DNA of 32,549 bases, from assembly GCA_945905295.1 (NCBI GenBank), contig CAMDPX010000065.1:1-32549 (forward strand), given 5' to 3'. Within the stretch, counting starts at the first letter, position 1; the number at the start of each line of letters is the position of its first letter. The notes beneath the pieces are model-generated. The model was not told the origin of the DNA. It was given only the letters and a program-made list of their open reading frames with translations, and searched no databases. Source of the DNA: Planctomyces sp. SH-PL62. GTDB taxonomy: Bacteria; Planctomycetota; Planctomycetia; Planctomycetales; Planctomycetaceae. Both the position numbers and the translations under genes were made by a program. Of the stretch, positions 750 through 32,549 are shown piece after piece.

Positions 750-773
750 GATGATCCAACTCTCTGCTCGGAC

Positions 774-826
774 GTGGAGCACGTTTTCAACGTGCTCGTC
801 ACGGGCACGTTGAAAACGTGCCCCAC
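774..826. repeat. Family A nested palindrome, copy A1
   Basis: Two 22-bp arms, 774-795 and 805-826, are inverted copies with one mismatch around a 9-base loop. Each arm is itself a hairpin: GCACGTT-TTC-AACGTGC in the left arm and GCACGTT-GAA-AACGTGC in the right. It ends 2 bp before the stop codon of the downstream lipoprotein gene and lies upstream of trpF. Other copies are at 8884-8936, 21727-21789 and 25226-25289. Confidence 0.92.
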
Positions 827-828
827 GA

Positions 829-1791
829 TTACTTCGTTTCCTGCATCGCCTCGAACTTGGCGATCCATTTTTCGGGGTCTTCCTCGAACGCCGCTTTGCA
901 GCCGGAGCAGCAGACCCAGTACGACTTTCCTTTGTGGCTGACTTGAATCGTTCCCAAGCCCTGCGAGATGACGCAGGTCTTCTCCTTGAAGTCGCTGTCA
1001 TTGAGAGCGAACGACGTCCCCTCACGCTGCGTTGCAATCGTGTCGAAGCGAACGAAGTTCTTGCCGCGAGCTTTCGACAACTCCAGCAAGTAGCGGTTGT
1101 TTTCCTGCTGGTTCATCACGACCTGCCAGCGGTCCTTCGCGTCGCCGTTCTCCGTGAGCTTCAACTTGTAGGTCCGTTGCGGTGTTTGCTTCTTGTCTTC
1201 ACCCGGCTTTTCGGAAGGCTCTTCGGTGAAGACCCCTTGCAGGACGCGCTTCTGGCCATCTTTTTCTTCGATGGTCATTTGAAATTGCTCCGCGTCGGTC
1301 AGATACGTCAGCCGCACCGATTTGAAAAGCACGCCGTCGCCAACCGTCTTCATCGCCAGTGCGGGTTGAGCCCGATCGGTCTTCCAATCCCAGACCCAAT
1401 TCAGGTCTTCGTATTCTTTGGACTTGTCGATGATCCCGTGCCACTGCCCCAGCACGACCTGAATCGGCTTGAGAGCTTTCTTGACCTCGTCGATTTGCTT
1501 CTCCGGCGGGAGCTTTGGCTTTGCGGCAGAGTTCGTTGCCGTCGCGGAACCGCCACCTCCGCCGAGCTTCACCGGTGCGAACGGTTTTGAGGACGTGTCG
1601 TCGTTCGACGCAGTTGAGGCCGAATCGTCGGCCGGCTCTTCAGCTTTGCTCGCAGTTGGAGCCGGCTTCTTTGAGCCGCTGCTGGCGGTCTTGTTCGTTT
1701 CCGGTTCGGCTGTCCCACCGCAACCGGCGATCCAGGCGGCAATGAGCGTTGAGGTCAGCAAGGCGGACGAGCGTGAAGATCGTTTGAGCAT
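829..1791 (-). CDS. Lipoprotein with C-terminal YHS/TRASH-like metal-binding domain
   Basis: This is a probable membrane-anchored lipoprotein of 320 residues. The N-terminus has a signal peptide with lipobox IAGC, with the lipid-bearing Cys at residue 24. It is followed by about 80 residues of Ser/Ala/Pro/Lys linker and then an unrecognised middle domain of about 170 residues. The C-terminus resembles YHS/TRASH metal-binding domains: Cys273, then GKSYWVCCSGC (Cys294, 295 and 298) and FEEDPEKWI, a typical YHS ending. Such domains bind copper, iron or other soft metals; the metal here is unknown. I start at the ATG at 1791 because it puts the signal peptide at the very N-terminus and has an AGAGA stretch 5-10 bases upstream. 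In-frame starts at 1809 and 1851 would only add residues before the signal. The gene is alone on its strand, with repeat A1 just past its stop. Confidence 0.75.
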   Translation of the reverse strand: MLKRSSRSSALLTSTLIAAWIAGCGGTAEPETNKTASSGSKKPAPTASKAEEPADDSASTASNDDTSSKPFAPVKLGGGGGSATATNSAAKPKLPPEKQIDEVKKALKPIQVVLGQWHGIIDKSKEYEDLNWVWDWKTDRAQPALAMKTVGDGVLFKSVRLTYLTDAEQFQMTIEEKDGQKRVLQGVFTEEPSEKPGEDKKQTPQRTYKLKLTENGDAKDRWQVVMNQQENNRYLLELSKARGKNFVRFDTIATQREGTSFALNDSDFKEKTCVISQGLGTIQVSHKGKSYWVCCSGCKAAFEEDPEKWIAKFEAMQETK

Positions 1792-4952: not shown

Positions 4953-6392
<1,440 letters not shown>

Positions 6393-6496
6393 GCTTGTAG
6401 TGACCCGATTTATCGGGTCGAGTCGCGCGTTCGCTTGTAGTGACCCGATTTATCGGGTCGAGTCGCGCGTTCGACCCCATAAATGGGGTCACTACG
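6393..6496. repeat. Family E hairpins with perfect 40-bp tandem duplication
   Basis: A 40-bp unit starting GCTTGTAGTGACCC occurs twice without a mismatch (6393-6432 and 6433-6472). It is followed by an inverted hairpin at 6473-6496. The forward hairpin is GACCCGAT-TT-ATCGGGTC and the inverted one is GACCCCAT-AA-ATGGGGTC. One base pair is exchanged on both sides of the stem, so each hairpin stays perfect. The element starts at the base after the DUF1501 stop and ends near the stop of the convergent peptidase gene. It may work as a bidirectional terminator (inference). Confidence 0.93.
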
Positions 6497-7602: not shown

Positions 7603-7676
7603 AGGCGAGCGGGGCGGCGTCAGCCGCCCGGTCCAGCGACGAATCCACCGGGGGGCTGACGCCGCCCCGCTCGCCT
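7603..7676. repeat. Family C inverted-repeat element, complete copy
   Basis: The left arm begins AGGCGAGCGGGGCGGCG and the right arm ends CGCCGCCCCGCTCGCCT; they pair almost completely over about 29 bp. The left arm also folds on itself as GGGCGGC-GTCA-GCCGCCC. It lies in the 250-bp divergent space between the M28 peptidase and the sialidase-like gene, ending 24 bp before the latter's ATG. The rest of that space (7451-7602) shows nothing recognisable. Confidence 0.9.
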
Positions 7677-7700
7677 GTTTCATTCATGAGAGAATCTGCG

Positions 7701-8882
7701 ATGCCAACTCAAAGCACACGACGCGAGTTCTTGGCGGCCAGTGCGACTGCCGCTTTCGGAGCAACGATGGCTGCATCGCGAACGGCTCCTGCGGCCGCTC
7801 CGACGATTGCGGTGTTGGAGCGACGAATCATCAGTTGGAAGCCGCCGCTGTATCACGGATGGCCGACGTTGGCTCGGCGGAAGAATGGCGAGTTGTTGTT
7901 AGTCTTTTCTGGCGGACGCGAAACGCATGTGTGTCCGTTTGGCCGCGTCGAGTTGATGCGGTCGCATGATGACGGCCAGTCGTGGGGGTGGCCGCAGGTG
8001 TTGATCGACGGGCCGATTGATGATCGCGATGCGGGTGTGGTCGAGACGGCGAATGGTTCGATCTTGGTGACGACGTTTACGTCGCTGGCGTATGAGGCTG
8101 CTCTGCAAAAGATGGAGAAGGCCACGCCTGCACCGGGCAAGGTGAAAGAGGAACATGACAAGCTGTTGGCCGAGTGGCGGGCGGCTCACAATCGCGTCAC
8201 GGCAGAGCAACGACAGAAGGAAATCGGGACGTGGATGATTCGTTCGACCGACGGTGGCGTGACGTGGTCGGCGCGGTATGCGGTGCCGGTCAACAGTCCG
8301 CATGGGCCGGTGGTGCTGCGCGATGGGCGGCTGATTTATGCGGGCAAAGCGTTGTGGAAAGATGACCGCGTCGGCGTGTGTGAATCGAAAGACGACGGCG
8401 TGACTTGGGAATGGTTAGCGACCATCCCCGCGCGGCCGGGAGATGATCCGAAGAACTATCACGAGTTGCATGCGGTCGAGGCGTCGGACGGGACGTTGAT
8501 CGCGCACATTCGCAATCACAATCAACCGAACGCGGGTGAGACGCTGCAATCGGAATCGACGGACGGCGGTCGGACTTGGTCGGTTCCGCATTCGATTGGC
8601 GTGTGGGGCTTGCCGTCGCATTTGTTGCGGCTGCGCGACGGACGATTGCTGATGAGCTACGGTCATCGTCGCAAGCCCATCGGCAATCTCGCGCGAGTCA
8701 GCAGCGATCACGGCCGCACATGGAGCGAACCGCTGACGATCAGTGATGACGCGAAGTTCGGTGACATGGGATATCCCTCAACCATCGAGTGCGCGGACGG
8801 CATGTTGGTGACGGTGTGGTATGAGGTGCTGGTCGATTCGCCGAACGCTCAATTGCGACAGGCCCGCTGGAGATTGAGCTGA
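7701..8882 (+). CDS. Tat-exported sialidase-fold (BNR/Asp-box) protein
   Basis: The 393-residue protein has a six-bladed propeller-type sialidase/neuraminidase architecture. Five Asp-box motifs (S-x-D-x-G-x-T/S-W) are visible at about 88-95 (SHDDGQSW), 182-189 (STDGGVTW), 229-236 (SKDDGVTW), 286-293 (STDGGRTW) and 334-341 (SSDHGRTW). A twin-arginine signal (STRREFLAASA) at the start predicts folded export. I chose the ATG at 7701 over the one at 7686 because GAGAGAA lies six bases upstream of 7701 and the Tat motif then starts near residue 6. Related planctomycete proteins are annotated as exo-alpha-sialidases, but the glycan substrate is unknown. The TGA stop merges with the edge of repeat A2. 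Confidence 0.85.
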   Translation: MPTQSTRREFLAASATAAFGATMAASRTAPAAAPTIAVLERRIISWKPPLYHGWPTLARRKNGELLLVFSGGRETHVCPFGRVELMRSHDDGQSWGWPQVLIDGPIDDRDAGVVETANGSILVTTFTSLAYEAALQKMEKATPAPGKVKEEHDKLLAEWRAAHNRVTAEQRQKEIGTWMIRSTDGGVTWSARYAVPVNSPHGPVVLRDGRLIYAGKALWKDDRVGVCESKDDGVTWEWLATIPARPGDDPKNYHELHAVEASDGTLIAHIRNHNQPNAGETLQSESTDGGRTWSVPHSIGVWGLPSHLLRLRDGRLLMSYGHRRKPIGNLARVSSDHGRTWSEPLTISDDAKFGDMGYPSTIECADGMLVTVWYEVLVDSPNAQLRQARWRLS

Positions 8883-8883
8883 C

Positions 8884-8936
8884 GTGGAGCACGTTTCCAA
8901 CGTGCTCGTGACGGGCACGTTGAAAACGTGCCCCAC
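8884..8936. repeat. Family A nested palindrome, copy A2
   Basis: This 53-bp copy matches A1 except for one base in the left arm (CGTTTCCAACG) and one in the loop. The edge TGACGTGG also occurs at the outer edges of the two longer copies at 21.7 kb and 25.2 kb. Here its TGA is the stop codon of the sialidase-like gene. Confidence 0.92.
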
Positions 8937-9018
8937 TTTATCTTCGGCAACATTTGCCGTGCTTTCTTGCGTTTTTGCGAATCCAATAAAAACGTGTCGA
9001 AAAGCTGAATAAGACCCG

Positions 9019-15225: not shown

Positions 15226-16440
15226 TCAGCGAGACGCGCTCGACAAGAAGCTGAACAGCCCCTTCTTGGCCTTGGCGGGTTCGGACGACTTCTTCTCGTC
15301 ATCATCGACCGGCGGGTCGAGTAGCTGGGCGAGGTTTTCGATCGCTTTCGTGATTCGCGATTTAGGAGCGTGCGTCAACAACGGGACGCCGTTGTTGCGC
15401 GATTCGACCATCGAAACGTAATCGTTCGGCAGTTGGAAATAGATTTCCCGGCCAATCGTTTCCAGCGCTTTGTTGAGGCTGATGTTCGCATCTTGCAAGC
15501 CCATGCGGTTGACGACGATCTTGACCTTCTCCGGCAAACCGGGCCGCTGGTCGAAGAATTGCATCAAGCGGACAACGTTCCGCAGACAAGGCAGATCGAG
15601 CTGCGTGATCAGCAGCACGTTGTCCGAGCACTCCATGGCGGCAATGTCCAAGGGACTGAAACTCTTGCTGGTATCCAGAATCAAGTGCGTGAATGTCGCC
15701 TTGAGCAATGAAATGACACGCCGCAATTCGTCCGGAGAAATCGCCGGGCGTTCGTCCATCTGGACGGGCCGAGGCAGCAGGTACGCGCCGCTGGAATGCT
15801 TCGTCAGCGAGCGTTTCAACAGGGCGTAATCCAGGCGGCTGATGTTGTCGGCGACATCTTGAATCGTGTAGTCGGGAATGACGTCCAGCCAGACGTCAGC
15901 ATCACCGAGCGACAGGTTGAGGTCGATGATCGCGACGTTGTTGCGCTGGTTCTGAGCCAACATGCAGGCCAGGTTGACGGCGATCGCCGTACAACCGACT
16001 CCGCCGCACACGCCGGCGAGCGTCACTACTTGCGCGGATTTCACCCGGCCTTCGTCGGTACGACTGTGCGTCGTTTGCTGGATGCGGTCCAACGCGGACA
16101 GAAAATCTTCCAGACGCAGCGGCAGGCTGAGGTATTCTCGCGCGCCGTTCCGCATGGCGCGCAGGATCAGGCTCCCTTCCTGCGACCCGCTGATGACCAG
16201 CGCGGCACAGCCCGGCAGGTTGGCGGAGATTTGCGAGATCAGGTCCAAGCCTTTGGTCGGATCGGAATCGATCGCGATCAGCGCGATGTCCGGCTGAGTC
16301 TGCGTGACGACATCAAAGAAGTAGTCGTAGCTGGAGCATTCCGCCTCTAGCCAGACGGCATCAATGCCCAGCAGCAAATTCTTCAATGACGCGCGGCTGG
16401 AATCCTTGGGATCCACCAGAGCGAGTCGGACGACTTTCAT
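15226..16440 (-). CDS. tadZ: TadZ/CpaE-like pilus localisation ATPase-fold protein
   Basis: The 404-residue protein combines an atypical receiver-like domain (about 4-121) with a MinD/ParA-like domain (about 135-375), the TadZ/CpaE layout. In the Tad system TadZ places the secretion machine at a cell pole or focus. The P-loop at 142-151 reads AGVCGGVGCT, so both lysines of the usual KGGVGKT motif are replaced by Cys (145 and 150). ATP hydrolysis may be lost or altered. Other MinD-like segments are VAIIDLNLSLGDADVWL and HLILDTSKSFSPLD. The tail is Lys/Glu/Ser-rich, ending in GLFSFLSSASR. It is the last gene of the Tad block, 191 bp after cpaC; that spacer shows nothing notable. Confidence 0.87.
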   Translation of the reverse strand: MKVVRLALVDPKDSSRASLKNLLLGIDAVWLEAECSSYDYFFDVVTQTQPDIALIAIDSDPTKGLDLISQISANLPGCAALVISGSQEGSLILRAMRNGAREYLSLPLRLEDFLSALDRIQQTTHSRTDEGRVKSAQVVTLAGVCGGVGCTAIAVNLACMLAQNQRNNVAIIDLNLSLGDADVWLDVIPDYTIQDVADNISRLDYALLKRSLTKHSSGAYLLPRPVQMDERPAISPDELRRVISLLKATFTHLILDTSKSFSPLDIAAMECSDNVLLITQLDLPCLRNVVRLMQFFDQRPGLPEKVKIVVNRMGLQDANISLNKALETIGREIYFQLPNDYVSMVESRNNGVPLLTHAPKSRITKAIENLAQLLDPPVDDDEKKSSEPAKAKKGLFSFLSSASR

Positions 16441-16631
16441 GGCAACGGGTCACTTGTGATCGGGGAAGGATCTCAAATTTCAAATCGAGTCCGCCCCCAT
16501 CCAGCTTGCCTGGAAAAGGCGAACGATGGCGAATTAAAGAACGACAAACATTGCTGGCCTTCGCTGAATGGAGCCCAAACATCAGACCTGGAATTCATTT
16601 CGTATCAGCATCCAAAATCAAAAAAGCAATT

Positions 16632-18515
16632 TCACCGCGGCGGTGGCTCGATGAGTCCGGGTTTGCGGTTGCGAGTCGTATTTGAATCGGTGCTGTTGGA
16701 TGCAGTGTAATCGGGCTGGCTGCTGCGATTGTTGCTCGCAGCGGCGTTGTTGCTGGAACGAGTTGGAGGGGCGGACTTGGCCGTGGGCATCGAGCGATTC
16801 GCCGTTGCAGGGGTCGGAGCTCGGGTCGATTCACTGGCGCGAGCCTTCACCGCTGCTTCGTCGTAGCTGGTTTGTTTCACACTGGAACTGCTCTTCGGCA
16901 TTTTCTGCCGCGCAGCCATCTGAGCGGCGAAGCGGCGAGCTTTCGCCGAAGCATCGGCATCTCCGGGGGCGGGGGGTGTCACCAACTCTTTGCGATCCGT
17001 GGCCGGAGGAGCCGATGCGGGACTGTTGGCATCCTTCAGGCCCGGCACGATGTAGGGACCGGTTTGACCGGGAGCGCACGTCGGACAGCGTTCGCCGTAC
17101 TTGGGGACTTCCATTAAACCGTACAACATTAACTCGCGATCGGTGGGCGCGTCCGTGAATTGACCAGGACCACCCGGCGGGACCTGGCCGTCATCCAGTG
17201 GGGCGACTAATTCGGGGGTGACGGTGATCACGATTTCGGTTTCGGCTTCGGTCGTCTGCTTCTGGCTGAAGGCCGCACCGATATACGGCAACTCGCCGAG
17301 AAACGGAATTTTGCGCATGCTCGTCCGCTGTGTGTTCGAGATCAGTCCGGCCAGCATCAGCGTTTGGCCGAACTTCATTTCGACCTGCGTGTTGACTCGG
17401 CGCACCGTGAGCGCCGGAACGGTCGTGCCGTTGATCGTCACGCCGTGAGCGTCATCACGGTCGCTGACTTCGGGCTGTAGTTCCAACCGGAGATTGCCGT
17501 TTCCCAGCACGATCGCCACGGCTTCCATGCGGACACCAAACTCACGGTATTGAATACTGACGGTTCCCAAGCTTTGAGGAACCACGATCGGGAATTCGCC
17601 GCCGGACAACAGGGTCGCCGGGCGACCATTGGTGGCGACGATTTCCGGCTCCGCGAGAATCTTGACCAACGATTCTTCACGCAGCGAGGAAATGAAGGAC
17701 TGAAATGTCGACTGATTTCTGACAACTCCAAAGGAGGCATTCGTCAGCAAACTGTTCGCGGCGGTTGCCACGGCCGGCGTTGCTCCCGGCAGCAATGACG
17801 CCGTCCCCTGAGCGCCCACGGCTGCCGAGCCAATCGCTCCTGGATTGCTCGTGACGTACCCGCTGGGGCTGACGTAGGTGAAGTTGATCCCCAACTGACG
17901 GATCAGAGAGCGTTGAGCCTCCATCACCTTGACCTTCAGCAGAACTTGCTGGACGCCGCCCACGCGCATCTGGTTGAGCACTTTGGGATAGAATTGTTCG
18001 GCGATTTCGACGATCTGCGTGATGTGTTCGGGATGCGTGACCCAGCCACGCAGCGCGATCGCCTCGCTCACCTTGAACGCCTCGATCGACGAGTTCGGAA
18101 ACTTGCGGTCGATGATGGATTGCAGTTGGCGGGCGTCCCCTTTGACGAGGACTTCGACCGTGTAGCTGGTTCCGGCGTCGTCGGTGATCACCAAGCTGGT
18201 GACCCCTTGCAACAGTCCCCTCACGCTAATGCGGGTCGGACTGACGGCGGTGACTTCCAGGACGACGGGGTCAAAACTGCTGACGCGCTTGATGAAGCTT
18301 TTGGTCTCGAAAACTTTCGAGAACTTCTCCGTCAATTCGACCTGAGTGCGATAGGCGGTGATGGGCACGACCGCATCGCTACCGGCAGCATCTGCCGCAG
18401 CGGACTGTTCGGCGGTCTCGGGCTGCGCGTGCAGCGGTTCGCTGATCAGCCAGCCGCTCGAAAACAGCGCGATCAGCGGCCATGCGGCCGGAAATGAATG
18501 ATGAAGCCAGCGCAT
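16632..18515 (-). CDS. cpaC: Tad pilus outer-membrane secretin CpaC/RcpA
   Basis: The 627-residue secretin forms the outer-membrane pore for Flp pili. A signal peptide covers about 1-30 (cleavage near LHA-QPE). A pilus N-domain follows at about 50-125 (FDPVVLEVTAVSPTRISVRG) and a BON-like segment at about 128-180 (SIEAFKVSEAIALRGWV). The secretin core runs from about 188 (QVLLKVKVMEAQRSLIRQLGINF) to about 440 (TLMLAGLISNTQRTSMRKIPFLGELPYIG shows the terminal signature). A disordered tail of about 180 residues, rich in Ser/Ala/Asn/Pro, includes one CPTC pair and is much longer than in proteobacterial CpaC. GAGGTG upstream of the ATG at 18515 supports the start. It lies between cpaB and tadZ, as in other Tad loci. 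Confidence 0.92.
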   Translation of the reverse strand: MRWLHHSFPAAWPLIALFSSGWLISEPLHAQPETAEQSAAADAAGSDAVVPITAYRTQVELTEKFSKVFETKSFIKRVSSFDPVVLEVTAVSPTRISVRGLLQGVTSLVITDDAGTSYTVEVLVKGDARQLQSIIDRKFPNSSIEAFKVSEAIALRGWVTHPEHITQIVEIAEQFYPKVLNQMRVGGVQQVLLKVKVMEAQRSLIRQLGINFTYVSPSGYVTSNPGAIGSAAVGAQGTASLLPGATPAVATAANSLLTNASFGVVRNQSTFQSFISSLREESLVKILAEPEIVATNGRPATLLSGGEFPIVVPQSLGTVSIQYREFGVRMEAVAIVLGNGNLRLELQPEVSDRDDAHGVTINGTTVPALTVRRVNTQVEMKFGQTLMLAGLISNTQRTSMRKIPFLGELPYIGAAFSQKQTTEAETEIVITVTPELVAPLDDGQVPPGGPGQFTDAPTDRELMLYGLMEVPKYGERCPTCAPGQTGPYIVPGLKDANSPASAPPATDRKELVTPPAPGDADASAKARRFAAQMAARQKMPKSSSSVKQTSYDEAAVKARASESTRAPTPATANRSMPTAKSAPPTRSSNNAAASNNRSSQPDYTASNSTDSNTTRNRKPGLIEPPPR

Positions 18516-18543
18516 CCCTGCACCTCAATTTCTGTGTCCGCCG

Positions 18544-18741
18544 TAGCCTGACTCTCCGAGTCGGGTTCTGCGGCGGGACTCCCGACTCGGAGAGTCAGGC
18601 GACGGTCTGTTTCGATCCCGACTCGGAGAGTCAGTGAAAGAATTGGTAGCTGAACTCGCCAGAGTTCAGTTTTCTCGGCGAATTCTGAAGTCTGGCGACT
18701 TAAGCTACCAAAAAGTTCACAGCCTCAGAGAGTCAGGCTAC
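18544..18741. repeat. Family B palindrome cluster with nested element
   Basis: GCCTGACTCTCCGAGTCGGG at 18545-18564 pairs perfectly with its inverted copy at 18581-18600. A second inverted copy is at 18617-18634 and a diverged one at 18724-18741. Each contains the small hairpin GACTC-TCC-GAGTC. The last two copies flank a 93-bp element (18631-18723). The diverged copy supplies the TAG stop codon of cpaB at 18738-18740. The cluster fills the gap between cpaB and cpaC. Confidence 0.9.
18631..18723. mobile_element. 93-bp cassette-like element between 9-bp repeats
   Basis: The body starts TCAGTGAAAG and ends GTTCACAGC. It lies between CTCGGAGAG (18622-18630) and CTCAGAGAG (18724-18732), which look like a target duplication. 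The core (18645-18709) has outer ends GGTAGCT and AGCTACC and two hairpins: CTGAACTC-GCCA-GAGTTCAG and CTGAAGTC-TGGC-GACTTAAG. It has the same length and similar ends as the two long family A copies at 21713-21805 and 25210-25302, but a different core. It encodes no protein. Confidence 0.5.
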
Positions 18742-19661
18742 GTTCCCTTGGCGGTATTCAGTGTCACGGGTTCTTGGTCCGGCAGATCGACTTCTTCGAT
18801 GCGGCGGTCGGCGCCGGCGATGATTTCGATCTTCCATTTCTTGCGGCCCGAATTGGGGGCGAGATTCACTTCCGGCGCGGGCTTTTCCACCGCGACCGGC
18901 GGTGGCAGGTCTCGTTCCTCGTTGTTTTTGACGACGGCAATTTCGGCACCCCTCGGATCGAATAACTCTTTTTCGTCGATCCGATGCTTATCGTTCATGG
19001 CCCGCAGTGTCAGGTGAATCGTGCCGACGTCGCCGGCCAGCTTTAACAGCTTTGCCTGCTCGCCGGTCACTTGCAGCGACACATTCTTCATGGGGACGGC
19101 CTTGGGATCACCGGCCTTGGGAAGCAAGTTCGGGTCGCGCACGCCGTCGATCGCGAAGACCTCGACGTACTCCAACACCGTCTTCACCTCCTTGTCGACG
19201 CCGCTGACTTCTCGCGATCCCACCCTGCGGTAGGTCACGAGCACATCCACATGATCGCCCGGATGAATCAGACCGACACCCGTCATCGTTTGGTCGATGG
19301 GCACCGAGGTGATACTCATCCCGTCACGAATATCACTCGACGCGTTTCGATTTCCTTTCTTATCCAGCATCGGTTCCAGAATCTGGGAGCCAGCGAAGGT
19401 GCGAACCTTCAACGTGCGTTCCTGAAGCTGTTCCTTGCTGACAATGGCTCCTTCCGGGATGGTCCCCGCGGGAAAACTCCTGAACTCCACATTGGTGTCG
19501 TCCAGCGGTTGTCCTGGTTGGATCTCCGCTTTAGCCACCAACACCTGGCCCGATTCTGTCTTCACTCCGCCCTGATTCGACAGGACTTGTTGCACTCCCA
19601 TCATGGCCACCAATCCGCAGATCGCGGCGACAGCCAACAAAGCCAATGTCTTCGGTCGCAT
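18738..19661 (-). CDS. cpaB: Flp pilus assembly protein CpaB/RcpC
   Basis: The 307-residue protein has an N-terminal membrane anchor (MRPKTLALLAVAAICGLVA, about 5-24). An SAF-type domain follows, with VLVAKAEIQPGQPLDDTNVEF and SFPAGTIPEGAI, then the CpaB segment ITSVPIDQTMTGVGLIHPGDHVDVLVTY split across about 120-150. CpaB works with the CpaC secretin in the periplasm. I use the ATG at 19661; the longer frame to 19694 begins at a GTG and adds basic residues before the anchor. The stop codon TAG lies inside a diverged family B repeat, so the last codons may have been set by repeat insertion. Downstream cpaC follows after a repeat-filled gap. Confidence 0.9.
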   Translation of the reverse strand: MRPKTLALLAVAAICGLVAMMGVQQVLSNQGGVKTESGQVLVAKAEIQPGQPLDDTNVEFRSFPAGTIPEGAIVSKEQLQERTLKVRTFAGSQILEPMLDKKGNRNASSDIRDGMSITSVPIDQTMTGVGLIHPGDHVDVLVTYRRVGSREVSGVDKEVKTVLEYVEVFAIDGVRDPNLLPKAGDPKAVPMKNVSLQVTGEQAKLLKLAGDVGTIHLTLRAMNDKHRIDEKELFDPRGAEIAVVKNNEERDLPPPVAVEKPAPEVNLAPNSGRKKWKIEIIAGADRRIEEVDLPDQEPVTLNTAKGT

Positions 19662-19819
19662 GGGACACCAGGACTTCCTTCGTATGATCGGCACCGTCTG
19701 GGCAAACTCTTCACCCTATAACGGCTTTGCCGATGGCGGGGATTCTCGGAGGTGATTTTTCAGAAAAACTCGACTCGCGATTTCTGCCGGACGAGACCCT
19801 AACAACTAACATCGCCATC

Positions 19820-19931
19820 ACCCCACCGAGCTTGCCTCGGTGGAGTCGGGCCTTTGCACTACGAACCGCGTCACTCGAAATCACGCCGTGGTGCAGAAGC
19901 CCGCGAGCCACCGAGCCAAGCTCGGTGGGGT
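19820..19931. repeat. Family D paired-hairpin element, copy D2
   Basis: The left arm hairpin is CCACCGAG-CTTGC-CTCGGTGG and the right is CCACCGAG-CCAAG-CTCGGTGG, both with perfect 8-bp stems. Compared with D1, whose left stem is CACTGAG/CTCAGTG, a T-A pair is replaced by C-G on both sides. It lies between tadV and cpaB, 15 bp after the tadV stop codon. Confidence 0.9.
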
Positions 19932-19945
19932 CGCTTGATGGAGGC

Positions 19946-20518
19946 CTAGATCAACATGCCGTCGTACACAAACACGGCAATCGCTCCGAAGCAGATGGGA
20001 ATACCATACGGCAGCAACCGCATCGTCGGCTTACGCTCGGCCGCGATTTGAGCCACGCCGTTCATGCCCAGCTTCTTCAGATCCATCCATTCTTGGAGGA
20101 TGACCAGGAAGTTGGTCGAGTGCCGCTGCCAATCGTTCTGCATCCAGACCATCACCACGGCCATGACCGCGCCGATGATCGCCGTCGCAACGAAGACTTC
20201 CAGGATGATCGCAGGGCCGAGCCACGCGCCGATGCCAGCCATCAGCTTCACATCGCCCGCACCCATGCCGCCTAGCATCCACAACCAGAACAGCGTCGCG
20301 AGTCCCACCACGGTGCCGAGCAACGCGCCTGCCAAGCCACTGTTCCAACTCCCCCAACCGCTGACGGCCAGGTTGTAGGCCAGCCCGCTCAGCACCATTG
20401 GGAAAGTGATCCAGTTCGGCACGCGGAGTTCTTTGCCGTCAATCCAGGCGGCGACAATCAACACGATCGTGACCAGTTTGACGTGCCAGTGATTCAGTAA
20501 TAGTTCTTGCCAGTCCAT
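19946..20518 (-). CDS. cpaA: Prepilin peptidase TadV/CpaA (A24 family)
   Basis: This 190-residue membrane aspartic protease cuts Flp prepilins after the conserved Gly. The two catalytic Asp are Asp27 in AAWIDGKELRVPNW and Asp89 in GMGAGDVKLM (the GxGD motif). About five or six hydrophobic segments are visible. It is short and lacks the methylase domain of PilD, as is usual for TadV. The ATG at 20518 has AAAGG about ten bases upstream; the open frame to 20584 adds a hydrophilic stretch with no support. It lies downstream of the flp genes. Confidence 0.92.
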   Translation of the reverse strand: MDWQELLLNHWHVKLVTIVLIVAAWIDGKELRVPNWITFPMVLSGLAYNLAVSGWGSWNSGLAGALLGTVVGLATLFWLWMLGGMGAGDVKLMAGIGAWLGPAIILEVFVATAIIGAVMAVVMVWMQNDWQRHSTNFLVILQEWMDLKKLGMNGVAQIAAERKPTMRLLPYGIPICFGAIAVFVYDGMLI

Positions 20519-20632
20519 GTTAGATGGCCTTTCGTGTGAGGCTTCGAATCGAGGGGTTAATCGATGGTGCCCGCCGCTACTCATTCACGGGAGTTCGGCA
20601 CCACGTCGCACACAGGCTGGGCGGTGGCACGC

Positions 20633-20746
20633 TTACGCTCGGGCGGACAGAAACAGCCAACTGCATGTCGAGGCCATGGCGACCAGTGAGGTCGTCAGGA
20701 GTTCCACGAGTTGAGTGACTTCCAGATTTAGCCAGTACGAAAACAT
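20633..20746 (-). CDS. Possible 37-residue membrane peptide in the flp-tadV gap
   Basis: A small frame starts at ATG 20746 with CAAGGTG about nine bases upstream. It encodes MFSYWLNLEVTQ, then a hydrophobic stretch VELLTTSLVAMASTCSWLFL and a short basic end. One membrane helix is likely. It sits between flp1 and tadV on the same strand, where small Tad-associated proteins can occur. No family was recognised. It could be chance, given its size. Confidence 0.35.
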   Translation of the reverse strand: MFSYWLNLEVTQLVELLTTSLVAMASTCSWLFLSARA

Positions 20747-20770
20747 GATGCACACACCTTGCTTGAAACG

Positions 20771-20812
20771 GCCGAACCGCCTCGACCGGGCAAGCCCGGC
20801 GAAGCGTTCGGC
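20771..20812 (-). terminator. Stem-loop after flp1, possible attenuator
   Basis: GCCGAACCGC at one end pairs with GCGTTCGGC at the other, enclosing the perfect inner hairpin CCGGGC-AA-GCCCGG. It lacks a clear T tract on the minus strand, so it may stabilise pilin mRNA ends or weaken read-through rather than terminate. Confidence 0.45.
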
Positions 20813-20849
20813 GAAGAACAGGTTGATCCGAGCGAAAGCTCGCGACCGA

Positions 20850-21011
20850 CTACGGCAACGCCGTCTGAGTGGAATCAAACGAACCGTTGACCTTCGTACC
20901 AACGGCGGTGATCGTGCCAATGCAGACCACAACAATCAGGGCCAACATCACGGCGTACTCGACAGCGGTTGGGCCATCTTCCGACGCCAAAAACTTCTTA
21001 AGCAGATTCAT
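20850..21011 (-). CDS. flp: Flp pilin 1
   Basis: The 53-residue Flp/Fap-type pilin is the subunit of the Tad pilus. The leader MNLLKKFLASEDG is cut by TadV after Gly13, before PTAVEY, which matches the G-(x4)-E-Y processing motif. The mature pilin is about 40 residues with hydrophobic core AVMLALIVVVCIGTITAV. AGGGAGAG lies upstream of the ATG at 21011. It differs from flp2 at only four residues (Ala/Thr9, Gly/Ser43, Ser/Ala47, Gln/Lys49), while most DNA differences are silent. Confidence 0.95.
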   Translation of the reverse strand: MNLLKKFLASEDGPTAVEYAVMLALIVVVCIGTITAVGTKVNGSFDSTQTALP

Positions 21012-21111
21012 GGTATGTCTCTCCCTTAGAGCGATTAGAGCGAAACCCATTCGGGCCATCAGGCTCGAGTCGAGTGTGGTTTCCGCCCGATCAACGGACG
21101 GCCCGCATAGA

Positions 21112-21167
21112 GAAAAAGAAAATCCGCCGCCGCCCGGCCGAGACGAACCTCGGTAAGACGGGCGGCG
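21112..21167 (-). terminator. Rho-independent terminator between flp2 and flp1
   Basis: Read on the minus strand, a 9-bp stem CGCCGCCCG/CGGGCGGCG with inner CCGAG/CTCGG is followed by GCGGATTTTCTTTTTC. It lies about 37 bp after the flp2 stop. If partial, it would give more flp2 transcript than downstream tad transcript. Confidence 0.72.
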
Positions 21168-21180
21168 AATTTGTTTCGAT

Positions 21181-21197
21181 GTGGGTGTGGCACCCAC
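21181..21197 (-). terminator. Small perfect hairpin just after flp2 stop
   Basis: GTGGGTG-TGG-CACCCAC lies 6 bp beyond the flp2 stop codon. It is not followed by a T tract and may act with the larger stem at 21128-21167. Confidence 0.5.
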
Positions 21198-21203
21198 GCC
21201 TGG

Positions 21204-21365
21204 TTACGGCAGAGCGGTCTTGGTGGCGTCGAACGAGCTGTTGACCTTCGTGCCGACGGCGGTGATCGTGCCGATGCAGACCACAACGATCAGGGCCAAC
21301 ATCACGGCGTACTCGACAGCCGTTGGACCATCTTCCGACGTCAGAAATTTCTTCAAAAGGTTCAT
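21204..21365 (-). CDS. flp: Flp pilin 2
   Basis: This second 53-residue Flp pilin, the promoter-proximal copy, has leader MNLLKKFLTSEDG, then PTAVEY and the hydrophobic core shared with flp1. Forty-nine of 53 residues match flp1. AGAAAGTGAG lies upstream of the ATG at 21365. The open frame continues 14 codons upstream without pilin similarity. The silent character of most DNA differences between the copies points to selection on the protein after duplication. Confidence 0.95.
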   Translation of the reverse strand: MNLLKKFLTSEDGPTAVEYAVMLALIVVVCIGTITAVGTKVNSSFDATKTALP

Positions 21366-21555
21366 GGTAAACTCACTTTCTCTTTGATGATTTATGGTTG
21401 GAATCACCGAGGTCTCTCAGGCCCCGGACAGACAACCGACGTTCGATGGCCATCGAACTCCCTTGCGAATCTTGGCTGTGCCGAAATTCGCTCACTGACA
21501 CCGGCTCGTTGTGTTGGTGATCACCGTTTGAGCCGTCATCAGCGTTGTCACCCAA

Positions 21556-21583
21556 AACCTAGGTCAGCCCCGCGGGGTGTCAA
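21556..21583 (-). promoter_or_regulatory. Possible promoter of the tad block
   Basis: On the minus strand TTGACA is followed after 16 bases by TAGGTT, about 190 bp before the flp2 ATG. The -35 is a perfect match to the sigma-70 consensus; the -10 is weak. The spacer contains CCCCGCGGGG, a palindrome that could bind a regulator. Confidence 0.3.
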
Positions 21584-21712
21584 ATTCGTGCGTTGAGAAA
21601 CTGCACGAAGACTTTGCCTAAACTCACGACGCACACAAAAGCGGTACGTTCGGAATAACCCAACGGGTTCGATCGAACTGCCAGGCATTTCAACGTGGCA
21701 TGATGCGGAGAG

Positions 21713-21805
21713 GCTGTGAAGTTTTCGTGGAGCACGTTTTCAACGTGCTCGAAAATAGGCTGATTGGGCACGTTGAAAACGTGCCCCACGTCATTTATTC
21801 ACAGC
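21713..21805. mobile_element. 93-bp family A element, copy A3
   Basis: The body starts GCTGTGAA and ends TTCACAGC. It contains the family A palindrome at 21727-21789 with a longer, 19-base loop. It lies between TGCGGAGAG and CTCGGAGCG, diverged 9-bp flanks. It is nearly identical to the reverse complement of copy A4 (25210-25302). No coding content. Confidence 0.55.
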
Positions 21806-21835
21806 CTCGGAGCGTCGAACCGCACTTCGTCGCTC

Positions 21836-21880
21836 AAAAAACGAAACGAGGACCGCATGTCTCCAGGCGGTCCTCGTTTT
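21836..21880 (-). terminator. Rho-independent terminator of methyltransferase-like gene
   Basis: A perfect 13-bp stem (21844-21856 with 21867-21879, CGAGGACCGC/GCGGTCCTCG at its heart) is followed on the minus strand by a run of six T. Four T on the other side may make it work in both directions. It lies about 27 bp after the gene's stop codon. Confidence 0.85.
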
Positions 21881-21906
21881 GTAGGACGAATTGGCTCGCG
21901 CCAATC

Positions 21907-22554
21907 TCACACGATGAAGGGAATCAGTCGCCAGCGCACCTGCGCCGAGTACGCTCGGTATTCCTCGCTCCGAAGCAGCAATCGTTCTTCGGCTTGGGCT
22001 CGCAGGAAGAAGAAGACAAACTGAGCGGCATACAGCGACAGATTCCACGCCGTCGGGTGGTTGATCACGAAGCCGAGATAGCTGACGACATAGGCCGAAT
22101 AGAGCGGATGCCGGACGAACTTGTAGAGGCCCTGAGTTTTGACGCCCCGATTGGCCGCTACCGTTCCAAAACTCGTGTTGAGCGAGCACAGGGCAAAAAT
22201 CTGCATCACCATTCCGACGAACTGAATCGCCTGAGGCACGATGTGGTCCCGACCGTTGACCGACTCGTAGAACATCACGAGGTAGGTTCCGGCACATCCG
22301 ACGAGCCAGTCATAAGGGGACGTGGAAATCTCGTGGGCATAGCGGCGCATGACGGTGAAGTACGAGTCGAGCAGCAGCTTCACCAGCAGCAGCAGCGTGC
22401 TGAGCCGGAATGCCACGGTCAGACTGAGGCCATTGATCACCGCGAATCTCAAGAACAAACAGGTCATCAGCACCTTGCTCAAGATTTCAAGGACGGCCCC
22501 GCCAGCGGGACGAACCTGACTGTTGATCGCTGCGGTCTGATTGACTGTCGACAT
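21907..22554 (-). CDS. Isoprenylcysteine methyltransferase-like membrane protein
   Basis: The 215-residue polytopic membrane protein has the C-terminal ICMT/PEMT-type signature: GVKTQGLYKFVRHPLYSAY (Arg148-His149-Pro150) followed by EERLL (Glu189-Glu190) and EYRAYSAQVRWRLIPF. In this superfamily the RHP and EE motifs bind S-adenosylmethionine. The bacterial substrate is unknown; lipid or small-molecule methylation is possible. Four to five hydrophobic segments are visible. I start at the ATG at 22554 with GGAGA about eight bases upstream; the longer frame to 22674 adds residues with no membrane or domain character. It diverges from the fatty-acid-hydroxylase-like gene. Confidence 0.8.
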   Translation of the reverse strand: MSTVNQTAAINSQVRPAGGAVLEILSKVLMTCLFLRFAVINGLSLTVAFRLSTLLLLVKLLLDSYFTVMRRYAHEISTSPYDWLVGCAGTYLVMFYESVNGRDHIVPQAIQFVGMVMQIFALCSLNTSFGTVAANRGVKTQGLYKFVRHPLYSAYVVSYLGFVINHPTAWNLSLYAAQFVFFFLRAQAEERLLLRSEEYRAYSAQVRWRLIPFIV

Positions 22555-22931
22555 GCAATGTCTCCGGAATTTGGGCTGCGCCAAATAGTTCGACGCAGCA
22601 GATTTGGCGAACTCTAGCTCGCCGATTTGACGGAGCTGCCAAGTTCTCCACGAGCCTCTCCGCCTGAGAGGCATTCGCGAGCCTCCTCGTCAGAATCGTT
22701 AGAGCCGGAATCAGGTCAGTGGCGGGAGTTTTGTCGGCCTTGCAACCATCGCTTTCGCCTTCGGCGATTGGCCAACTTTTTGACCGTCGCTCGTCATCGT
22801 TCGCCGTTCGCAAACCCGATGAGTTGTTGTTGACAGTCACTTCGTCGGGCCGATATTCAGCCCGCGTTTCAGGCTCCTGGTGGAGCGTCGGGGCCAATTC
22901 TTCCAAGTTCTGACACACGCATGGAGGCGGT
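22555..22931. other. 377-bp divergent intergenic region
   Basis: This is the region between the methyltransferase-like and hydroxylase-like genes. It contains one possible promoter and no repeat family seen elsewhere. A small hairpin CGCTTTCGCCTTCGGCG near 22750 is unremarkable. No gene was found. Confidence 0.6.
22830..22859 (+). promoter_or_regulatory. Possible promoter of hydroxylase-amidase unit
   Basis: TTGACA and TATTCA are separated by 18 bases, about 70 bp before the GTG start at 22932. Confidence 0.35.
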
Positions 22932-23798
22932 GTGCTCGACTTCATCACTCAATCGATCCGTTCGGCGGGTCAATCGCTGTGGGACGCGGTCTTAGTCTTG
23001 CTGCTGGCCGCCGTCGCGTTTTGTCTTCTGGCGGTGATCGTTAAAGGCAAAGAGGCGCTCGCTGCCGGGGTTCGGGCGGCGAAGGAAATTCGGGTCAACC
23101 TCTCGCTCTATTTCTTTGACGCCGTATTCATCGCGCCGATCATTGCGCTGCTGGTCGAGTTGGTCCAGCGAACGGTGCGCGGGTTTGGCTTGATCATCGT
23201 CCCCCCTGAGCGTTGGGAATTTGTCGGCGCTTGGGGAACGGCGGTCGCTGCCGTCTTTATTGGCGACTTCTTTTCCTACTGGCGACATCGCGTGGAGCAC
23301 ACGCCGTTGCTGTGGCCCTCGCACGCGATCCACCACAGCGATACTCAAATGACGTTTCTAACCCTGTGGCGATTTCATCCAATCAACCGTGCGACGACCG
23401 CCGTCATCGATATTGCCTGCCTCTCGGCCATGGGCTTTCCACAGTGGTCGATCACGGTGGTTTTTGCGGTCCGTCACTACTACGGACAGTTCATCCACGC
23501 GGACGTACCGTGGACCTACGGACCATTGAAGTATTTGTTCGTTTCGCCTGTGATGCACCGCTGGCACCATGCGCGAGATGTGGATGGTTCCGGCAGCAAT
23601 TTCGCTACCGTCTTCTCCGTCTTTGACCAAGCCTTTCGCACGTATCACATGCCCGGACTCTGCACCGTGCCTCTGGGAGTCAGGGACGAGATGAGCCCAG
23701 GCTCGATCGGCCAATTGATCTATCCCTTCGTCGCCTGGCCCAAACGGCTCTTCCGCAGAAGAAGATCGGAGAACCGCCAGCAGTCGGGCACGACGTGA
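22932..23798 (+). CDS. Fatty acid hydroxylase/sterol desaturase superfamily membrane protein
   Basis: The 288-residue di-iron membrane enzyme has the three histidine clusters of the superfamily: HRVEH (His119, His123), HAIHH (His131, His134, His135) and HRWHH (His209, His212, His213). Hydrophobic segments at about 18-37, 62-80, 98-115 and 155-180 fit a polytopic enzyme. Family members hydroxylate or desaturate lipids, sterols or carotenoids; the substrate here cannot be told. The start is GTG at 22932 with GGAGG four bases upstream, a short but workable spacing. The next gene, an amidase, starts seven bases after its stop, so the two are probably co-transcribed. Confidence 0.85.
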   Translation: MLDFITQSIRSAGQSLWDAVLVLLLAAVAFCLLAVIVKGKEALAAGVRAAKEIRVNLSLYFFDAVFIAPIIALLVELVQRTVRGFGLIIVPPERWEFVGAWGTAVAAVFIGDFFSYWRHRVEHTPLLWPSHAIHHSDTQMTFLTLWRFHPINRATTAVIDIACLSAMGFPQWSITVVFAVRHYYGQFIHADVPWTYGPLKYLFVSPVMHRWHHARDVDGSGSNFATVFSVFDQAFRTYHMPGLCTVPLGVRDEMSPGSIGQLIYPFVAWPKRLFRRRRSENRQQSGTT

Positions 23799-23805
23799 TT
23801 GACGA

Positions 23806-25200
23806 ATGGCGGAGAGTATCAATCTGGAAACCAGCATTATGCCCGCTCCTGATTCCTTCGCCTTTGCAACGGTTGCCGATCTCGGCCGACGCCTGTGGTC
23901 GCGCGAGTTCACGTCGGTCGAGCTGACTCGATTCTTCCTCGACCGGCTGGAGCAACTCGGCCCGAAGCTGAATGCCGTCGTGACCGTGACTCGCGAGCGG
24001 GCCTTGGCAGAAGCTCAACAAGCGGACCAGGAACTCTGTTCCGGTCGTTATCGAGGCCCGCTGCACGGCATCCCCTACGGCGCGAAAGACCTGCTGGCGA
24101 CCAAAGGAATTCCCACCACATGGGGAGCGGCTCCGTTCAAAGATCAAATGTTTGACGAAGACGCCGTCGTGATCAAAAAACTGCGCGACGCCGGAGCGGT
24201 GCTGGCCGCGAAACTGGCGATGGTCGAAATCGCTGGAGGACTCGGATATCGACAAGCCGACGCAACGTTCACCGGGCCGGGACTGAACCCGTGGAACCGA
24301 ACCCGCTGGGCCGGCGGTTCGTCGAGCGGTTCCGGTGCGGCGGTCGCCGCGGGACTGGTGCCGTTCTCCATCGGCACCGAAACCTGGGGGTCGATCATGA
24401 CCCCCGCCGGTTACTGCGGAGTGACCGGACTGCGACCCACCTACGATCTCATCAATCGACAAGGAGCGATGGCTCTGACTTGGACCATGGACAAGATCGG
24501 CCCGCTGACGCGCACCGCTCAGGATTGCAGCTTCGTCCTCAATGCGATCCGCGAACCTTCTCCCGCCCCCGCTCAATCTCAATGTCCGTTCCGCATCGGA
24601 GTGCTCGACGACGCCGTGACGAAAGTGCAGCCGGAAGTCCAAGCGAACTTCGAGGCGTCTCGCAAAGTGCTCGAACGCTGCGCCACGCTCAGCGAGTTCA
24701 AGCTCCCCGATCTGCCGTATGGCTCAGTCAATTCGATCATCATCTCGTGCGAGATGGCCGCCGCGTTTGAAGACCTCGTGAAGAACGGCAAGGTCTGGGA
24801 GATGACCGCCGAAGAAGACCGCTGGGGCCTGTACTCCGCATTGACGATCCCGGCCAAGGACTACATCAACGCGATGCGCATCCGCGCGATCATCCAGCGC
24901 GAACTCGACGCCGCGATGTCACCGTTCGACGCGGTCATCAGCCCGACGCTGCCGTCGGTCGCGTATCCGATCGACCGCCCGTGGGACGAATACCGCAAAG
25001 GACTGGCCGGCAGCCAAATCGGCGGAGCCGGCAACGCGGCCGGCATCCCCGCGCTCTCGATCCCCAACGGCTTCGGCGAAGCCGGCCTGCCAACCGGCCT
25101 GCAACTCGTCGGCCGCGCGTACTCCGAAGATCGCCTGCTCGCGATCGCACAGGCCTACCAACACCAAACCGATTGGCACTGCCGGCACCCCGTCGCCTGA
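23806..25200 (+). CDS. Amidase signature family enzyme
   Basis: The 464-residue amidase signature (AS) hydrolase has the Ser-cisSer-Lys triad visible: Lys94 in YGAKDLLATKG, a cis-Ser in GGSSSGSGAA (Ser172/173) and the nucleophile Ser196 in GTETWGSI. The usual small residue before the Gly-Ser pair is Trp194, which may shape the pocket. Similarity to GatA is general, but no gatB/gatC neighbours are present and the position after a lipid hydroxylase suggests another amide substrate. There is no signal peptide. The ATG at 23806 has no good ribosome binding site; the one at 23839 is an alternative, and coupling to the upstream stop is possible. The stop TGA lies in a family B sequence (GCCTGACTCTCCGAG). 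Confidence 0.88.
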   Translation: MAESINLETSIMPAPDSFAFATVADLGRRLWSREFTSVELTRFFLDRLEQLGPKLNAVVTVTRERALAEAQQADQELCSGRYRGPLHGIPYGAKDLLATKGIPTTWGAAPFKDQMFDEDAVVIKKLRDAGAVLAAKLAMVEIAGGLGYRQADATFTGPGLNPWNRTRWAGGSSSGSGAAVAAGLVPFSIGTETWGSIMTPAGYCGVTGLRPTYDLINRQGAMALTWTMDKIGPLTRTAQDCSFVLNAIREPSPAPAQSQCPFRIGVLDDAVTKVQPEVQANFEASRKVLERCATLSEFKLPDLPYGSVNSIIISCEMAAAFEDLVKNGKVWEMTAEEDRWGLYSALTIPAKDYINAMRIRAIIQRELDAAMSPFDAVISPTLPSVAYPIDRPWDEYRKGLAGSQIGGAGNAAGIPALSIPNGFGEAGLPTGLQLVGRAYSEDRLLAIAQAYQHQTDWHCRHPVA

Positions 25201-25206
25201 CTCTCC

Positions 25207-25305
25207 GAGGCTGTGAATAAATGACGTGGGGCACGTTTTCAACGTGCCCAATCAGCTTGTTTTCGAGCACGTTGAAAACGTGCTCCACAAAAACCTCACA
25301 GCCTC
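25207..25305. mobile_element. 93-bp family A element A4, inserted in a family B repeat
   Basis: The body at 25210-25302 begins GCTGTGAA and ends TCACAGC. It is flanked by exact 9-bp direct repeats CTCTCCGAG (25201-25209 and 25303-25311). Joining the flanks restores CCTGACTCTCCGAGTCGGG, the family B arm. It is the inverted near-copy of A3. The rest of the 25201-25445 gap shows nothing recognisable. Confidence 0.65.
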
Positions 25306-25445
25306 TCCGAGTCGGGCCGTCCGCGCGAGCATGGGGTCGGGTGGAATGAAATCCATGACTGTGTCGCGCATCGCGCTGGACGCGGCCACGGCATGACGTA
25401 GGCTTGCCCGAACGTCCCGCCTCTCCCCTTGCGAAAGAGCGAATG

Positions 25446-32465: not shown

Positions 32466-32495
32466 ATTGTCTCGTGTCGGGCCACGAACGAAAAC

Positions 32496-32549
32496 AGGCG
32501 AGCGGGGCGGCGTCAGCCCGCCGGTAAGTTCGACACGGAACCGGGGGCT
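32496..32549. repeat. Family C inverted-repeat element, cut by window edge
   Basis: The left arm begins AGGCGAGCGGGGCGGCG and reads into CCGGTAAG; the right arm starts with ACCGGGGGCT and is cut by the edge. It follows the ABC ATPase gene by 30 bp. Confidence 0.8.

Follow-up and report, generated by a model that had tools for sequence, protein, structure and literature searches.

Probable IS1182-derived miniature elements with interchangeable cores in the loops of REP hairpins of Planctomyces sp. SH-PL62

We analysed a 32,549-nucleotide stretch of Planctomyces sp. SH-PL62 (contig CAMDPX010000065.1, positions 1 to 32,549; hereafter the window), which carries three copies of a 97-bp gene-less unit with inverted ends. 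These units very probably represent a non-autonomous derivative, that is, a miniature inverted-repeat transposable element (MITE), of the IS1182 lineage of insertion sequences (ISs), which nests in the loops of repetitive extragenic palindromic (REP) hairpins, duplicates the loop and would be moved in trans. An earlier note on the window had described 93-bp cassettes between 9-bp flanks. Its picture of a mobile unit with an exchangeable core whose joined flanks rebuild a repeat arm is supported, while the 9-bp duplication, the strict 93-bp length and the idea of an undescribed system are not. The three copies and their flanking repeats are as follows:

18624..18628, plus strand: element 1, left 5-bp direct repeat, CGGAG
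18629..18725, plus strand: element 1, core B, 97 bp, ends AGTCAGTGAA ... TTCACAGCCT, the left end with two changes
18726..18730, plus strand: element 1, right 5-bp direct repeat, CAGAG, one change
21706..21710, plus strand: element 2, left direct repeat, CGGAG
21711..21807, plus strand: element 2, core A, 97 bp, perfect 10-bp ends
21808..21812, plus strand: element 2, right direct repeat, CGGAG
25203..25207, plus strand: element 3, left direct repeat, CTCCG
25208..25304, minus strand: element 3, core A, 97 bp, right end CTCACAGCCT with one change
25305..25309, plus strand: element 3, right direct repeat, CTCCG

The regions around elements 2 and 3 (21697-21816 and 25199-25318) are 93% reverse-complementary over 120 nt. 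A search of positions 18500-25400 against Rfam gave no match.

Copies in the host genome

The host assembly (G000; 8.6 Mb, 476 contigs, 97% complete, the window being its contig C65) was searched with a pattern of the two ends that allowed a total of 81-111 bp. This genome-wide search returned 95 matches, one of which was the same place reread on the opposite strand (C117), and the reversed control pattern returned none. The match length was 95 bp, equivalent to 93 bp between the 9-mers, in 91 of the 95; three matches were longer by one base, and one was a chance match. Fixed-length elements are enriched far beyond chance.

From host loci found through similarity to core A or B or through the ends pattern, we assembled 112 unique full copies, with at most two changes from the 10-mer in each end. 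Decayed copies and other cores fall outside this set, as do the A-hairpin pairs at element spacing at C6:13545 and C55:12267, and the orientation of one B copy (L093; left flank CGGAG, right CTCCG) is uncertain. The copies are 97 bp long in 109 cases and 98 bp in three. No larger element with the same ends was seen among those of the 94 right-end matches that were compared by eye; all were 97- or 98-bp elements except a truncated relic (L126, about 566-636 of G000:C424, match at C424:620) with a third core, GACAGGCTGGAAGCCTATCCCAC, which also occurs in G007, G010 and KLAP164.

Boundaries of the elements and flanking repeats

The unit consists of AGGCTGTGAA, 77 bp and TTCACAGCCT, giving 97 bp with 10-bp inverted ends, and stands between 5-bp direct repeats CTCCG. 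The end sequence is exactly AGGCTGTGAA on the left in 85 of the 112 copies and on the right in 69; the third base of the ends (AGNCTGTGAA) is more variable than the neighbouring bases, chiefly at the right end. CTCCG flanks the left end in 103/112 copies and the right end in 100/112, and the two flanking 5-mers are identical in 93/112. At one locus (L059), an A and a B element lie in tandem with three CTCCG repeats in total, as expected if one had entered the repeat of the other. Short length, lack of genes, terminal inverted repeats and a target site duplication are all features of a MITE.

The CTCGGAGAG-like 9-mers of the earlier note do flank all three window copies at a distance of exactly 93 bp (18631-18723, 21713-21805 and 25210-25302), which would fit a 93-bp unit with 9-bp target duplications. 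Each 9-mer, however, is composed of the 5-bp repeat, two element bases and two target bases. It occurs exactly on both sides in only 40/112 copies, and the CT/AG target bases that it needs are present in 50/112. REPs with GTCAC and other stems do not supply these bases, and across the target families GTAGCCTGACTCTCCGAGTCGGG, GTAGACGAGTCACTCCGTGACTCG, GTGGCACGACGCTCCGCGTCGTG and GTAGCAGGCACACTCCGTGTGCCG only the CTCCG 5-mer is common at the insertion point. The AG/CT adjoining CTCCG cannot derive from the target in REPs of the GTCAC, GAYGC and CACAC types; since it persists at targets that lack these bases, it belongs to the element, and the unit is therefore 97 bp long with 5-bp repeats. A 9-bp duplication is ruled out by these non-GACTC targets, which leaves the 93-bp unit hardly credible.

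The target is the loop of a REP hairpin

When the flanks were joined, a stem of at least six pairs around TCC (G-U pairs and one mismatch allowed) was found in 101/112 copies. The corresponding figure for CTCCG sites in the window, whose own REPs were counted in this control, was 5/113. Since the joined flanks fold around TCC, CTCCG corresponds to a TCC hairpin loop together with the C-G pair that closes it. A GTNG head accompanies the stem in 92/112 joined targets, and the target is typically a GTAG- or GTGG-headed REP. The earlier observation that joined flanks rebuild the arm of a repeat, there named family B, was correct and proved to be the key to the target. In 70/112 cases, the joined 17-mer was found intact elsewhere in the retrieved host loci. 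At L148, L149 and L150, Y1 transposase genes have GTAG REPs in their vicinity whose loops read TCC or TCT; these genes are plausible mates of the target REP families. One unoccupied target adjoins element 1:

18541..18605, no strand assigned: intact REP pair, target family GTAGCCTGACTCTCCGAGTCGGG and its inverse

The REP stem type GACTC accounts for 51/112 targets. Together with the orientation relative to CTCCG, which is mostly inherited (see below), and with the fact that a REP with an enlarged loop retains its stem, this prevalence could suggest that REPs with an element already lodged in the loop were propagated in one piece, by REP-associated tyrosine transposases (RAYTs) or REP-REP recombination, with no repeated insertion. 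Against such spread, one and the same core occurs in several REP stem types (core A: GACTC 24, GTCAC 9, GAYGC 3, other 9) as well as at sites lacking a clear hairpin, and tandem elements share single CTCCG repeats. As a general explanation it has, in our judgement, very little likelihood, although a minority of copies may have arisen in this way.

Cores A and B

Core A consists of two inverted hairpins with GTGG heads, and core B of two inverted hairpins with GTAG heads. Core B, initially taken as unrelated, therefore shares the design of paired inverted hairpins with core A. The A-type hairpins form a repeat family in their own right, with 227 exact matches in the host genome. Among the first 100 of these matches, 42 belong to head-to-head pairs spaced at 39, as in the elements, five are singles in known elements and 53 have no matched element; the remaining head-to-head pairs among these 100 have a spacing of 29-38. 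Two free pairs lie in the window:

771..836, no strand assigned: A-type REP pair of core-A hairpins, without element ends and with a shorter linker
8881..8946, no strand assigned: second free A-type REP pair

Folding of the cores was compared with shuffled sequences in a set of 23, composed of elements with flanks alike in at least 4/5 positions (which drops L159) and three common host copies. The z-score was at or below -3 in 21/23 cores, and GTAG/GTGG-type heads were present at both ends in 14/23. The GTAG-type head and hairpin that define REPs, bacterial interspersed mosaic elements (BIMEs) and REP doublets forming hairpins (REPINs) are found in cores A and B and in the 92 headed targets, but not in the unit as a whole, which, unlike those repeats, is surrounded by DDE-type inverted ends and a target duplication.

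Elements with other cores in Planctomycetota

With the ends fixed and the core left free, copies were detected in 8 of 170 genomes of the family and in 7 of 12 of the genus, the host being included in both counts. A scan of GTDB species genomes, which may leave out the window's own genome, yielded 17 loci, all planctomycete by record title; two of the records with elements (L188 and L193) are titled Candidatus Kuenenia stuttgartiensis, titles that look mislabelled, as the contigs equal G007:C315 and G010:C4 of the window's genus in length. Two loci were found in viral contigs, neither with CTCCG repeats.

In total, 21 distinct elements (one from the host) measured 96-116 bp and carried about ten cores that on visual comparison differ from A and B, and one further element of 140 bp was found outside the host genome; searches with both ends fixed reached about 120 bp. 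A few elements have a changed flank on one side (CACCG, CTTCG, CTCTG or CTCAG). The length preference noted earlier is thus strict within the host, but the range of 96-140 bp in other genomes means that it is no property of the system: 97 bp is common in relatives and is no law. The view of a small mobile unit with an exchangeable core and an enzyme encoded elsewhere holds up, given about ten cores on the same ends and the full-length IS1182-family elements of relatives described below.

IS1182-family elements with the same ends

A search of 19 genomes for ends of either orientation turned up many that lacked a near partner. In G001, two such ends stand 1.7 kb apart and bound a 1706-bp IS (G001:C191:150-1855) with the ends AGCCTGTGAAACAATTG and AGTCTGTGAATCAATTG and with CTCCG on both sides; its ends, AG(C/T)CTGTGAA, are alike between left and right at 15/17 bases. 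The transposase between them belongs to the IS1182 family (NF033551, 348 bits against a cut-off of 270) and contains Pfam DUF772 and DDE domains; this score refers to the G001 copy, and the 97-bp units themselves carry no gene. The search for full-length elements in relatives covered IS1182-type elements. Related ISs also start with AGGCTGTGA, at both ends in the case of G009 and at a single end in G010 and in G005. Potential autonomous partners with open transposase frames and both ends exist in G001 and G009, with partial copies in G010 and G005. In a class-wide scan that scored the best four candidates per genome, 22/397 genomes had a match at 1e-60.

The 41 IS1182-related loci comprised three without alignment, six with one end only and 32 counted by rule as having both ends, among which L267 has inverted rather than direct flanks and L250 is cut at a contig end. 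The 5-bp flanks of the 32 are identical in 19 and alike in at least 4/5 positions in 23. A palindromic target, as reported for some IS1182 members, is characteristic of the MITE sites and was also found, as a stem of at least five pairs, at 13 of these 23 full-length loci. Many full-length copies follow the same target rule, although the 5-mer itself differs between elements: it is the loop with its closing pair in CTGTG (G402), CCGAG (L255), CAATG/CAAAG (L256) and CTCCG (L261). Copies L261 and L263 sit at CTCCG loops, and four copies in G402 lie at GTAGGGTCCG[CTGTG]CGGACC or one-base variants.

Proposed mechanism

In the mechanism that we favour, an IS1182-type DDE transposase acting in trans would bind ends of about 17 bp (AGGCTGTGA followed by A/T-rich sequence) and join them to either side of a REP hairpin loop, 5 bp apart. 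The loop and closing base pair (CTCCG) would be duplicated and the REP stem kept on both sides, possibly with recognition of the target as a cruciform or single strand. The core can vary freely. In the host it comprises two inverted REP-like hairpins, of type A or B, which means that hairpin repeats would travel inside the element and end up in the loops of further hairpin repeats. The transposase would once have been present in the host genome.

Several observations weigh against this interpretation. The stem is shorter than six pairs at 11/112 sites, so CTCCG without a clear hairpin serves too. Among the full-length elements, 9/32 loci lack matching 5-bp flanks, a count that includes wrong pairs because the rule forces a best pair; of the 23 loci with matching flanks, 10 have a stem of fewer than five pairs. 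There is no stem at L258, L271 and L275 (CTCAG or CTGAG) or at L268 (CAATG), and the G001 copy has three pairs. No close transposase was found in the host assembly, where the best IS1182 match is 27% identical and lacks these ends; an autonomous partner in the same genome, a further mark of a MITE, was not found in this assembly of 476 contigs and 97% completeness. The source transposase of the host copies may have been lost, may be unassembled or may never have been resident.

Finally, orientation relative to CTCCG is non-random: all 45 of 45 A copies point one way, and B copies are split 47 to 20. Ordinary DDE insertion into a near-symmetric site is expected both ways, and the fixed orientation therefore counts against the mechanism. 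The two A copies of the window, described earlier as opposite, differ when read along the plus strand; measured against CTCCG, both point the same way. Two A copies in G005 and G006 agree in orientation with those of the host. On the tree, B orientation requires five label changes as compared with about 14 in shuffles, a control limited by near-copies and weak branches. Full-length ISs occur in both orientations (e.g., L255 versus L277). Orientation relative to CTCCG is mostly inherited, and a putative recognition dependent on the folded strand would explain why it is fixed.

This inheritance would also suit movement of the units by RAYT transposases (Y1/HUH) as oriented single-strand hairpins, in which case CTCCG would be the cleavage site at the target and right end and not a true duplication. 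The host has 13 Y1_Tnp genes, at least three of them with GTAG REPs with a TCC loop nearby, and the cores are REP pairs. The inverted ends, however, match those of full-length IS1182 elements, which are of the DDE type and lie between 5-bp direct repeats, some of the about ten unrelated cores lack GTAG/GTGG heads, and the exact AGGCTGTGA end is absent from the 13 retrieved host Y1 loci. We consider this explanation improbable. The inverted ends and DDE relatives likewise speak against an IS200/IS605 derivative (PATE-like), which the oriented insertion by a short fixed target might suggest.

Comparison with known systems

For the IS1182 members IS1272 and TnSha1, the available text of the two reports describes target hairpins that are wholly or partly deleted, with no duplication (PMC5678879, PMC4923244). 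The transposase family of our full-length relatives and the choice of inverted repeats or hairpins as targets are shared with these elements as described there (PMC5678879, PMC4923244). In the IS1272 scheme, the legend of Fig 13 (pathway c) allows for loop duplication, while the abstract reports no target site duplications (PMC5678879). As far as the available text describes it, IS1272 deletes or replaces the hairpin without duplication, whereas the 97-bp units keep the stem and duplicate the loop and closing pair (PMC5678879). Stem-loop replacement of the IS1272 type is ruled out here, with both stem halves kept and CTCCG duplicated.

Insertion into REPs has been described for ISPsy8, ISPa11, ISPpu9/10, ISRm22, ISRm19, IS1397, ISKpn1 and IS621 (PMC1525189). 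According to the available text, the insertion point is fixed where described, and the joined ISPsy8 flanks rebuild a REP, as in our case; these ISs belong to the families IS3, IS110, IS4, IS256 and IS5, and the name IS1182 does not occur in that text (PMC1525189). The 97-bp units differ from the REP-targeting ISs presented there in being gene-less and in having the loop itself as the insertion point (PMC1525189). REP dimers inside palindromes, i.e., pairs within a longer inverted repeat as in our units, are reported for GTAG-15 of A. variabilis and CGTC-1 of H. neapolitanus; section 7 of that source names no flanking duplication, transposase or REP-loop target (PMC3733652). Compared with the dimers as presented there, the 97-bp units have ends like those of an IS1182 element and are themselves, as enclosing units, located in REP loops (PMC3733652).

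The available text of the same source names ERIC, NEMIS and RUP as bacterial foldback MITEs (PMC3733652). Foldback MITEs resemble the 97-bp units in being short, gene-less, self-folding and of high copy number with inverted ends, and differ in their ends, target and enzyme. Correia elements are a further bacterial foldback MITE. To our knowledge, each such family has one core sequence, in contrast to about ten cores on the same ends here.

In searches of the open-licence literature, no title or abstract start among the best 10-15 papers per search concerned an IS1182 MITE with REP cores; an ISfinder entry for these ISs may already exist. The proposal that no system of such form had been described did not stand, as the units are MITEs of a known IS family and IS insertion into REPs was already known. 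As far as the literature was searched, the loop-duplicating rule for the IS1182 family and the interchangeable REP-type cores are new.

A broader reading, which we put forward tentatively and which may well prove wrong, treats the transposon ends as a chassis with interchangeable REP cargo. REP families would have been captured repeatedly between IS1182 ends at near-constant size. They would have gained a second way to spread, driven by a DDE enzyme, chiefly targeting other REPs at their loops and keeping an inherited orientation; the transposase would recognise a hairpin folded from one strand and copy precisely the loop and closing pair, whatever the loop (TCC, TGT, CGA, AAA). One rule, duplication of loop and closing pair, is shared by more than 100 insertions in the host genome and by some of the full-length relatives; it bears on how IS1182-type enzymes read DNA structure and means that structure-directed target choice can be tested on defined substrates. 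The arrangement also nests two mobility systems, REPs inside a DDE-type MITE inside other REPs, as a second possible REP-spreading route.

Other features of the window

A further dispersed palindrome family, GCGAGCGGGGCGGCGTCAGCC, occurs at 1-56, 7603-7685 and 32491-32545. A similar string, GAGCGGGGCGGCG, follows a CTCCG-AGTCTGTGAA end in L209 (G003) and L226 (G002), and no partner end was found for either when looked for; a GCGAGCGGGGCGGCGTCAGCC-type palindrome may also be a core of such elements.

A Tad/Flp pilus cluster occupies 15226-21369 and encodes an ATPase/response-regulator protein, a secretin, CpaB (TIGR03177), an A24 prepilin peptidase and a Flp pilin (PF04964), the last accompanied by a DNA copy of itself (86%). 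The secretin and CpaB genes flank element 1; element 2 follows just after the pilin copy. A 40-bp sequence is repeated in tandem at 6387-6466 (two copies, 95%), with the palindrome CCCGATTTATCGGGT inside.

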